A stretch of 37,306 nucleotides of DNA from Parcubacteria group bacterium GW2011_GWC1_45_14 (GTDB lineage: Bacteria > Patescibacteriota > Minisyncoccia > Moranbacterales > GWC2-37-73), in the NCBI GenBank assembly GCA_001001345.1, contig LCKI01000005.1, positions 1-37,306 of the forward strand. Direction: 5' to 3'. Shown piece after piece: positions 1,699-37,306 of this stretch. Position 1 is the stretch's first letter; each line of letters starts with the position of its first letter. The notes beneath the pieces were generated by a model, which was not told where the DNA came from, did no database searches, and was given only the letters and a program-made list of their open reading frames with translations. The translations under genes and the position numbers were made by a program.

Positions 1699-4350
1699 CT
1701 ATTTACCATGACATTGTTTATATTTCTTTCCGGACCCGCAAGGGCATGGGTCGTTGCGGCCGACTTTCTGATCGTTGATGATCGGTTTTTGCGCCGTTCG
1801 TTTTTCAGAAGCGCCTTTGTCCGCCGAAGCTTCAGCGGAGGCGGAGAATTGCTCGATGTATTCCCCTCCGCTATACCGCACATTCTCCGGAATCTGCTGT
1901 ACTGGTTGTTGCTGCGGCTGAGCCGAAACCATGGAAACCTTGAAGATGGTCCTGACTATAGTGGTGCGGATGTTTTCCATCAGGTGCGAGAACAGGTTGA
2001 AAGCTTCCCTTTTATATTCGATGAGCGGATCTCTCTGGCCGTAACCGCGAAGCCCGATCCCCTGGCGAAGATAATCGATTTCGTCCAGATGGTTCATCCA
2101 AAGCGTGTCGATCGTCTGCAATATGATCGCCTTTTCGACATTCCTCATTGCGTCCTGCCCTATTTCCTGTTCTTTTTGCCCATAATAATGTTTCGCCCTG
2201 TCCACGATGAAATCAGTGATGGCCGTTTTCTTATCCACCTCAGTCTTCGACTTGTCATTCTGGATCTTTTTGAGTTCCGTTTCGTTTTCTTTCGTGAAAG
2301 GGAAAATGTCAGCGACATCCGTCCCGATTTTCTCGATGTCCCAAAGAAAATCCTCGTCCGTACAATATGCCGAAACGACCTGTTCGATCTCCTCCTTTAC
2401 ATATTCCATCATGTCATTCTTGGCGTCCTTCATTTCCAAGATTTCTTTCCTTTTTTTATATATGACTTCCCTTTGCTTGTTCATGATGTCGTCATACTCC
2501 AAGACATGTTTTCGAATATCAAAGTTATATCCTTCGATTTTCGATTGGGCGTTTTCAATTGTCTTGGAAATGATGGCGTTCTGAATAGGCTGGTCCTCAG
2601 GAAGTCCGAGTCTGTCCATCATGCCTTTGAGCTTGTCCCCTCCGAACCGCCTCATCAATTCGTCTTCCAAGGAAACATAGAATTGCGAAGCGCCTGGATC
2701 CCCTTGGCGACCTGCGCGTCCGCGAAGCTGGTTGTCGATACGCCTCGCCTCATGGCGCTCCGTACCGATAATGAAAAGTCCGCCGACTTCCCTCACTCCC
2801 TCGCCCAATTTGATGTCCGTTCCGCGACCTGCCATGTTTGTGGCGATAGTCACCGCCCCTTTCTGTCCGGCTTTCGAGATTATGGTAGCTTCCTTTTCAT
2901 GATGCTTGGCGTTAAGCACTTCGTGTTCGACTCCTTCCCGAGAGAGAAGGACGCTGAGATATTCCGATTTCTCAATAGCGATCGTACCGACCAAAACGGG
3001 CTGGCCGACCTTATTGATTTCCTTGATCTCCTTGACGATGGCATCAAACTTTCCCTTCTCTGTCTTATAGATAACATCCGCCAAGTCCTTTCTGATCAGA
3101 GTTTTGTTAGTGGGAATTTCAGTCACGTCCAATTTGTATACACGGAAAAACTCCTCCGCACTCGTCGAAGCGGTTCCCGTCATTCCGGAAAGCTTCTTAT
3201 ACATCCTGAAATAGTTCTGGAAGGTGATAGTGGCCAGAGTCCTGGATTCCTTCTGCACCTCCACTCCCTCCTTGGCCTCGATCGCCTGGTGCAATCCGTC
3301 GCTATACCTTCTTCCCTCCATCAACCTTCCAGTGAAATCGTCCACGATGATAACCTGCCCATCCTTCACGACGTAGTCGCGATCCAATTTGAAAATCGCA
3401 TGCGCTTTCAGCGATTGCTCCAAGTGATGCACGTAACTTATTTTTCCAACCTCATAAATATTTCCGATTCCCAACATTTCTTCCACCTTGGAAATTCCCT
3501 GTTCTGTCAGGGTCGCGGCCTTCATCTTCTCATCCACCTCATAATCCGTTCCTTCCTTGAGGCGCGGCACGATATGGGCGAACTGCTGATAGAGCTTGGT
3601 AGATTCGCTGTCCGGAGCGGAAATGATAAGCGGGGTCCTAGCCTCATCGATCAAAATAGAGTCGACCTCGTCGACGATCGCATAGTTCAATTCCTTCTGT
3701 GCCATTTGGGAAATATCCTGAACCATATTATCGCGAAGATAATCGAAACCAAATTCATTATTTGTTCCATAGGTGATATCCGCGGCGTAAGCATCCCTTC
3801 GGGAAACGGACGAAAGATTTTCCATCTCCACACTGACTTCGTTGGTGTCGATGATTTTCGGTTCATATGAAAAAGACGCCTGATTGACGATGCAGGAGGT
3901 TTTGAGTCCCAGAAAATTATAAACGGAACCCATCCAGTTGCAATCGCGTTTTGCCAAATAATCATTGACCGTGACGACATGGACCCCTTTTCCGGAAAGA
4001 GCGTTCAGGTATATCGGAAGAGTCGACGTCAAAGTCTTTCCTTCGCCCGTCTTCATTTCCGCGATTTTTCCCTGATGCAAAATTATTCCTCCCAGGAGCT
4101 GAACATCATAGTGTCTCTCTCCCATCACCCTCTTGGCGGCCTCACGCACCACCGCGAAAGCTTCCGGCAAAAGTGCGTCCAGAGTCTCCCCTTTGGAAAT
4201 CCTATCCCTGAATTCCTGTGTCTTGGCTTTTAACTCCTCATCGGAAAGCTTGACCACCCCCGCTTCGAGAGAGTTTATTTTTTCCACGATCGGCCGGAGT
4301 TTATTGATTTCCCTTTCGTTTGAACCGAAGATCTTGCTGAAAATACCCAT
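1699..4350 (-). CDS. secA: Preprotein translocase subunit SecA
   Basis: 883 aa; [41 protein letters not shown]-terminal SEC-C motif [21 protein letters not shown]. Confidence 0.98.
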
Positions 4351-4375: not shown

Positions 4376-4455
4376 GTCATTCCCGCGGAAGCGGGTCTCG
4401 ATGCCCTTTGAGGGTAAATCCAGGGCCCTGGATTCCGGGTCAAGCCCGGAATGAC
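4376..4455. repeat. Palindromic intergenic repeat upstream of secA
   Basis: GTCATTCCCGCGGAAGCGGG...CCCTGGATTCCGGGTCAAGCCCGGAATGAC; nested inverted repeats with GTCATTCC/GGAATGAC ends. Confidence 0.8.
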
Positions 4456-4580: not shown

Positions 4581-5243
4581 TTATTTACCTAGAAATTTAA
4601 AAGACTTCAAAATTGTATTTCCCGTCTCAATATCAGCATTTCTTATAGTTATATCATAAGATGTGTTTCCTTTCAGCACTTTGTAATGAGTAACGTCATT
4701 ATATGTAAAATGATATGCTTTTTCTCCGGCAATAACAAATTCTTCATACTTTCTCCCGGAATCTTTTTGTTCTTTTATCCATTTATCAATTGTATCATTA
4801 GTGTTCAATTCTAGATCTGTAACATCCACCGCAAAGGTATAATAATAAAGTTTCTGTCCTTCTGGAGCTTTAACAAAAAGCATCGGTTCATCCCTGTCCG
4901 GTTCTCCTAAAAACACGCTCATATTTTCAGGATAATAAAACTCTACTCCATATTTCTCATTCTTATAATACTTTCGTGCTTCCACTCCAACACATGCCGC
5001 GAATTCGCAATTGGGACCCCCTCTTTCCACATAAGACCCGTCCGGGCAAAGCTTCGCTTCCATCGTGCACGCGACCTGTTCATCCGGTTTTTGTTGCTGG
5101 ATTTCTGAGGGCTGGTTGCCAGTGACCGATGACTGTTTCTTATTCGCGAACATATACCCGAACACTCCCGCGTTGACCGCTACGATGACGACGATGAGCG
5201 CGATAACCGCCACGTTACCTTTTTTGTTTTTCATTTTTTTCAT
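4581..5243 (-). CDS. Membrane-anchored exported protein, PsbP-like fold possible
   Basis: N-terminal TM (GNVAVIALIVVIVAVNAGVFGYMF), Cys-bearing segment CTMEAKLCPDGSYVERGGPNCEFAACV, then YGVEFYYPENM domain. Confidence 0.75.
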   Translation of the reverse strand: MKKMKNKKGNVAVIALIVVIVAVNAGVFGYMFANKKQSSVTGNQPSEIQQQKPDEQVACTMEAKLCPDGSYVERGGPNCEFAACVGVEARKYYKNEKYGVEFYYPENMSVFLGEPDRDEPMLFVKAPEGQKLYYYTFAVDVTDLELNTNDTIDKWIKEQKDSGRKYEEFVIAGEKAYHFTYNDVTHYKVLKGNTSYDITIRNADIETGNTILKSFKFLGK

Positions 5244-10801: not shown

Positions 10802-11521
10802 TTAATGTTTTTTTGATTTTTCTTTCCTCCACTTCTCGATCTCCGCATGATTTCCGCTGAGCAGAACTTTGGGCACTTCCCACCCTTGGAAATCTTCGGG
10901 CTTGGTATACTGCGGATATTCCAGATATCCTTCCTCGCTATGCGATTCGACGGTCGCGCTGTCGACATTCCCCAGGACTCCGGGAATAAGCCTTGCTACC
11001 GAATCGACCACGATCATCGCCGGAATTTCCCCTCCGGTCAAAACGTAATCTCCGATGGAAAGTTCCTCATCGACGATATTTTCCGCCACACGCTCATCCA
11101 CTCCCTCATATCTCCCGCAGACCATGATCAATCTGTCATACTCCGAAAGTCTTTTGGCGTCGGCCTGGGTGAACCTCTTTCCCTTGGCGGAAAAAAGAAT
11201 CGTCCTGGTTTTACCGCTGTCATTCCGGACTTGATCCGGAATCTCTTTTCCTGCTAGTTGAGATCCTGAATCAAGTTCAGGATGACATTCTTCCTTGATA
11301 TCCCACACAGCACGCCATATCGGTTCCACTTGCATCACCATGCCAGCCCCTCCCCCATACGGCGTGTCGTCGACGTTCCTGTGTTTGTTTGTGGAATAAT
11401 CGCGCAGGTTATGCGTCTGAATTTCGATAAAGCCGCCCTCCTTAGCGCGCTTGATTATCGACTCATTGAAATATGAATCGAAAATATCAGGGAAAATCGT
11501 GATTATGTCGAATTTTTTCAT
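10802..11521 (-). CDS. trmD: tRNA (guanine-N1)-methyltransferase with in-frame palindromic-repeat insertion
   Basis: MKKFDIITIFPDIFDSYFNESIIKRA, DDTPYGGGAGMVMQVEPI, MVCGRYEGVDERV, SIGDYVLTGGEIPAM; inserted CHPELDSGSQLAGKEIPDQVRNDS. Confidence 0.96.
   Translation of the reverse strand: MKKFDIITIFPDIFDSYFNESIIKRAKEGGFIEIQTHNLRDYSTNKHRNVDDTPYGGGAGMVMQVEPIWRAVWDIKEECHPELDSGSQLAGKEIPDQVRNDSGKTRTILFSAKGKRFTQADAKRLSEYDRLIMVCGRYEGVDERVAENIVDEELSIGDYVLTGGEIPAMIVVDSVARLIPGVLGNVDSATVESHSEEGYLEYPQYTKPEDFQGWEVPKVLLSGNHAEIEKWRKEKSKKH
11219..11286. repeat. Palindromic repeat inside the trmD coding sequence
   Basis: GTCATTCCGGACTTGATCCGGAATCTC ... GAGATCCTGAATCAAGTTCAGGATGAC, inverted arms in frame. Confidence 0.85.
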
Positions 11522-11662: not shown

Positions 11663-11712
11663 AACCGAACTTTTACTACCATTATTGGTAGAATAGTAGT
11701 AAAAGTTCGGTT
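11663..11712. repeat. Long perfect inverted repeat
   Basis: AACCGAACTTTTACTAC (11663-11679) / GTAGTAAAAGTTCGGTT (11696-11712). Confidence 0.9.

Positions 11713-36603: not shown

Positions 36604-37306
<703 letters not shown>

Follow-up and report, generated by a model that had tools for sequence, protein, structure and literature searches.

The trmD gene of Parcubacteria group bacterium GW2011_GWC1_45_14 contains an in-frame insert made of two REP units in head-to-head orientation, and this insert is missing from the closest orthologues. We consider it highly probable (about 0.87) that a REP doublet inserted into the gene and survived with the reading frame kept, and that it is translated as a disordered loop of a functional TrmD. 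The gene lies in the 37,306-nt stretch of DNA analysed here (the window), which is part of contig C5; the draft genome comprises 888,454 bases in 32 contigs and is 97% complete. The features are listed in Table 1.

Table 1. Features of trmD and its insert, in window coordinates
Feature	Position	Strand	Basis
trmD, tRNA (guanosine(37)-N1)-methyltransferase, 239 aa	10802..11521	-	Profile scores and Foldseek
In-frame insert of 69 nt net (REP doublet core of 68 nt and one additional T)	11219..11287	-	Codon-level comparison with empty-site orthologues L089-L092
REP unit 1, GTCATTCCGGACTTGATCCGGAATC	11219..11243	+	Exact match to family pattern; identical 25-mer at several further genomic positions
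18-nt spacer separating both REP units	11244..11261	.	Sequence
REP unit 2, GTCATCCTGAACTTGATTCAGGATC, forming a head-to-head heterodimer with unit 1	11262..11286	-	Exact match to family pattern

The insert in trmD

The gene product scored above the cut-off of both TrmD profiles, with 280 bits for TIGR00088 (cut-off 195) and 298 bits for NF000648 (cut-off 220), and all of the invariant TrmD residues of the alignment are present. Translation, profile scores and alignment therefore bear out the preliminary description, according to which the frame stays open through the repeat and the downstream motifs are intact. The insert encodes 23 residues, C79 to D101 (CHPELDSGSQLAGKEIPDQVRND). The peptide reported previously was translated correctly, but it was drawn one residue too long, since its last serine (AGC) belongs to the flank of the host gene.

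The nearest TrmD sequences from named genomes are those of four Candidatus Moranbacteria (Moraniibacteriota; L089-L092), which are 77–81% identical. These four closest orthologues lack the insert, and the difference is 69 nt at codon resolution: the codons GAA GAA (T + 68 nt) AGC GGT AAA ACC correspond to AAA/CAG-type codons, then GCC AAC TTG/TTA AAA ACC (ending in AAA TCA in L091), with the empty junction between GCC and AAC. The outcome named beforehand as refuting, a non-repetitive loop of the same length in all close homologues, did not arise, as these homologues lack the insert. The loop had been described as one that usually varies, and the loops extracted from relatives indeed span 12 to 91 residues. 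No target-site duplication is visible at trmD, as judged against empty sites from orthologues that are about 80% identical. The draft of the same-genus genome G001 yielded no trmD; among the extractable TrmD loops of the order, that of the source genome is the only one bearing a REP.

The arms of the inverted repeat (11219–11245 and 11260–11286) were originally reported correctly to the letter, but as a single palindrome. Each arm folds as its own 25-nt hairpin, and what looks like a single inverted repeat is thus composed of two REP units that face each other head to head and differ in their stems (TCCGGA and CCTGAA). The repeat exceeds chance: 0.00 matches to its 27-mer are expected in the window, and the folding energy of the insert strand is −29.8 kcal/mol, compared to −15.4 ± 2.8 kcal/mol in shuffled sequences (z = −5.1). 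An Rfam search of the region gave only matches below the gathering score, which we regard as chance. Upstream of trmD, at 11663–11712, there is a near-perfect inverted repeat (AACCGAACTTTTACTACCATT) with 21-nt arms that are 95% complementary and separated by 8 nt; it is unrelated to the REP family and may represent a terminator or some different element.

An AlphaFold model of TrmD, made from a 43-sequence alignment, had a mean pLDDT of 82, and the sole segment below 50 comprised residues 80–94. The elements flanking the insert, a helix (residues 65–77) and a strand (residues 105–116), are predicted normally, and a Foldseek search with the model matched solved TrmD structures (E = 6e-26, TM ≈ 0.78). 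The predicted TrmD fold is thus normal, with the disorder confined to the insert.

The REP family in the source genome and its relatives

The likeness of the repeat to intergenic sequences, pointed out in the preliminary description, reflects its membership in a family that is dispersed genome-wide. The 25-nt unit opens with GTCAT and closes with ATC; in between, two complementary half-stems of six bases enclose CTTG(A/T). About 42 such units were found in the source genome at ≤2 mismatches, compared to 0 for a reversed control pattern. The stem covaries: in a comparison of 22 distinct unit sequences, 97.7% of the stem cells are paired, with 31 two-sided changes, compared to 9.9 ± 2.7 in shuffles. 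The stem is 8 bp long, with outer A-U and U-A pairs that are invariant, partly through the search pattern, and the loop has 5 nt, chiefly CTTGA or CTTGT. Of 138 distinct contexts, 134 have a T before GTC and two have a C. In the 3-nt tail, in which the first C is fixed by the definition of the pattern, the commonest forms are TAC, TCG, TGC and CAG, and CCA is in the minority.

In seven related genomes, 46 of the 70 REP clusters are arranged head to head and one tail to tail. Order-wide, 72 of 131 genomes contain REP units, and exact units were present in 96 of the 380 genomes sampled across the phylum, with zero matches to the reversed control. The window itself contains a single intergenic unit (GTCATTCCGGGCTTGACCCGGAATC) on the minus strand at 4431–4455, between the open reading frames at 1699–4350 and 4581–5243. 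Near the end of the window, at 36869–37003, there are 28-nt inverted arms, 79% complementary and 79 nt apart.

In-frame copies in other genes

Other in-frame REPs occur in the tgt (TIGR00430, 475 bits) and elp3 (TIGR01211, 539 bits) genes of the source genome, with frames that are open through the repeat, and in a thymidylate-kinase-family gene that scored over the cut-off for PF02223 and below that of the NCBIfam model. In-frame gene copies thus account for four of about 27 REP places in this genome. In the seven relatives, nine of the 70 clusters are in frame inside recognisable genes, namely those for RNase HII (rnhB; two genes, three sites), an RlmN/Cfr-family protein (two sites), MurE, a GT4 glycosyltransferase, a B12/radical-SAM protein and a HypF-like protein. 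Bacterial genomes are mostly coding, and the low share of intragenic REPs therefore suggests that harmful insertions are strongly removed. Open frames through REPs at L002, L009, L279 and L326 are probably not coding and were dropped.

The core of the trmD doublet, at 68 nt, has a length of 2 modulo 3. The same holds for 11 of 12 doublets in long open frames, compared to 4 of 55 others (Fisher p = 1e-8, which is optimistic because related copies are counted, L222 and L223 being from one genus and the elp3 copy of the source genome being at the same site), and the direction of the effect is clear. These other doublets are mostly 85 nt long. A core of this residue class and one extra T, as found at the trmD junction, together preserve the frame exactly.

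Repeats in the loops of TrmD, Elp3 and Tgt

The same TrmD loop contains a doublet of another stem type in Candidatus Portnoybacteria L093, read in a different frame (LSFPRKRES...IPAQGRND), and a third REP combination (CHPGLDPGS...LDSRFRGND) in L101, which belongs to the Portnoybacteria clade like L093. In both, the REP core starts within 3 nt of that in the source genome, as counted by hand from the conserved EPI motif. A single origin of the three inserts was rejected, since a quick tree requires no fewer than two changes (AU p = 0.042). Two origins among the three carriers are supported, and the differing units and frames may hint at a third. There is thus some evidence that one TrmD loop has been used repeatedly. 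A 21-nt palindrome (CCTGCCTCGTCGGCAGACAGG) is present in the TrmD loop of G016 (L062) and absent from that of the same-genus genomes G012 and G018 (L064, L068). An apparent enrichment of perfect inverted repeats in the loop (11 loop genes versus 25 elsewhere, p = 4e-4) was not relied on, because the conserved helix contributes many of them as AT-rich hairpins and because related genes were counted apart. Long inserts were also observed in a second TrmD loop (near query residues 194–199, before LEYPQYTKPE) at loci L088, L372, L375, L386 and L397, which come from G020, G021, G030, G040 and G046.

The Elp3 loop that bears the REP in the source genome contains REP doublets in G011 and G013 as well, with another spacer; in other relatives, G001 among them, it is occupied by repeat-like sequences of a quite different kind. 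The Elp3 proteins of G011 and G013 (L222, L223) seemingly have two REP doublets each, after KAANDY and near residue 450. In Tgt, the REP adjoins an AATTTCC-type repeat, of which several relatives have multiple copies, the reversed control giving no matches; G001 has neither. The source-genome Tgt (L003, 1090–1680) has, in addition to its REP doublet, two more in-frame inserts that resemble repeats, SKSQFPISNEIQNSK and PNFEFRISNFESNSNDRISND.

A broader proposal would be that several unrelated families of short dispersed repeats have landed time and again in the variable loops of housekeeping enzymes in Patescibacteria (TrmD, Elp3, Tgt, RNase HII and RlmN), that these loops evolve in length and sequence mainly by turnover of translated repeats and not by point mutation, and that the CGTC-type REPs are spread by a non-Y1 enzyme. 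We put this forward tentatively, with the odds somewhat against it. The presence of differing repeats in the same loops of TrmD, Elp3 and Tgt makes the turnover of repeats worth testing.

Discussion

The most likely explanation is that the trmD insert represents selfish DNA that the enzyme tolerates because the surface loop is permissive. A non-autonomous CGTC-type REP doublet would have inserted, presumably by transposition, between the helix at residues 65–77 and the strand at 105–116. It would have survived since its total length preserves the frame and both REP units are open in that frame, and it would be translated as a disordered 23-residue extension, neutral or slightly harmful, of an enzyme that probably remains functional.

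We considered the possibility that the REP-encoded loop is useful, for example in contacts with tRNA or a partner, and has been kept by selection. The insert does sit in a tRNA-binding enzyme, three of the four REP-bearing genes in the source genome (trmD, tgt and elp3) modify tRNA, and the TrmD loop of Portnoybacteria holds REP doublets as well, of another type. However, what has been kept is consensus REP DNA and not a conserved protein sequence, the segment is predicted to be disordered, the closest relatives lack it, and their loops at that position vary freely; recruitment is thus quite unlikely. A role at the level of nucleic acid, in which the hairpin would adjust the translation or decay of the trmD mRNA and would be translated only incidentally, would agree with the strong predicted hairpin (−29.8 kcal/mol, z = −5.1) and with the activity on mRNA attributed to REPs elsewhere (PMC3733652). 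In trmD, however, the hairpin is located mid-gene, where ribosomes would unwind it, and 11 of 12 intragenic doublets have a frame-compatible length, as expected if selection acts on the protein, which makes such a role very unlikely.

Short repeats can produce misjoins, and in a 32-contig draft an assembly or binning artefact within trmD has to be considered. However, the doublet is merely 68 nt, shorter than usual sequencing reads, the frame and both flanks run on exactly as in the orthologues, and in-frame doublets recur in independent assemblies (elp3 in G011 and G013, TrmD in L093 and L101). A misjoin is hardly credible under these circumstances.

As for the mover of the tolerated doublet, a Y1 (RAYT-like) transposase is not supported. 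Y1_Tnp (PF01797) had no match in the 97% complete source draft, whereas five control genomes matched, and no association with REPs was found across 131 genomes of the order, where Y1 is present in 14 of 23 REP-rich genomes versus 59 of 108 others (Fisher p = 0.65). Nine REP-rich genomes are without Y1_Tnp, including G127 with 87 unit matches. A RAYT as the mover was set aside on these two grounds, the missing match here and the lack of association across the order.

Protein-coding palindromes of the REP and Rickettsia type were already known; what is new is their presence in Patescibacteria, organisms whose genomes are small and whose way of life is largely symbiotic, which resembles the situation first seen in Rickettsia. 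REPs of this kind are natural insertion maps, since they show which loops of essential enzymes can take up 20 or more residues of foreign origin. Furthermore, genome sets such as the phylum sample, with exact units in roughly a quarter of its members, make a search for the missing transposase of CGTC REPs practical.

Comparison with known systems

Two inverted hairpin units also make up one dispersed element in the REPIN/RAYT system (PMC3116915, PMC8266576). Those REPs carry a GTAG tag and are accompanied by a RAYT, whereas the tag here is TGTC and no Y1 transposase was found; the REPs of the source genome are thus not REPIN/RAYT. QMITE1 and QMITE2 of Coxiella burnetii are likewise short and palindromic and extend host proteins by additional amino acids, but they are longer MITEs with direct repeats and, in functional genes, are found at the 3' ends rather than in internal loops (PMC5896051).

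In their anatomy the units match the CGTC-tagged REPs, a superfamily described by Di Nocera et al. (2013; PMC3733652). As defined there, these REPs have a CGTC or TGTC tag, a stem of 8–9 bp with AT in the first two positions, a loop of 4–5 nt and an unpaired 3-nt tail, mostly CCA. They form head-to-head heterodimers, tail-to-tail pairs being rare, and some are intragenic, encoding 20–30 residues; no transposase was associated with them, and the mover was named as an open question in 2013. The REPs of the source genome agree in all features tested (tag, 8-bp stem with AT, 5-nt loop, head-to-head heterodimers, intragenic members and no association with Y1) except the tail, which conforms only loosely to CCA. 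They differ in their hosts, Patescibacteria not being among the five phyla listed by the survey (Proteobacteria, Chlorobi, Bacteroidetes, Spirochaetes and Thermotogae), and in their targets, since the available text mentions none of trmD, tgt and elp3 (PMC3733652). We found no report of CGTC-type REPs from the candidate phyla radiation in the open-licence literature.

Rickettsia palindromic elements (RPEs; Ogata 2000, 2002) are described in reviews as translated in frame inside conserved housekeeping genes (PMC2229807, PMC10969869), and a Gmk product carrying an RPE insert stayed active (PMC2229807). The frames that are open through the repeats in trmD, tgt, elp3 and the thymidylate-kinase-family gene are similar in this respect, while the RPEs first described are longer, 105–146 bp compared to 68 nt for the trmD doublet. 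The parallel with Rickettsia had been drawn from the trmD repeat by itself; the observation is confirmed, its interpretation is supported, and the parallel can now be made precise. Di Nocera et al. placed RPE-4 and RPE-6 of R. conorii among the CGTC-tagged REPs (PMC3733652), the superfamily that the anatomy of the units in the source genome matches, so that the relation to these two elements follows from a published assignment.
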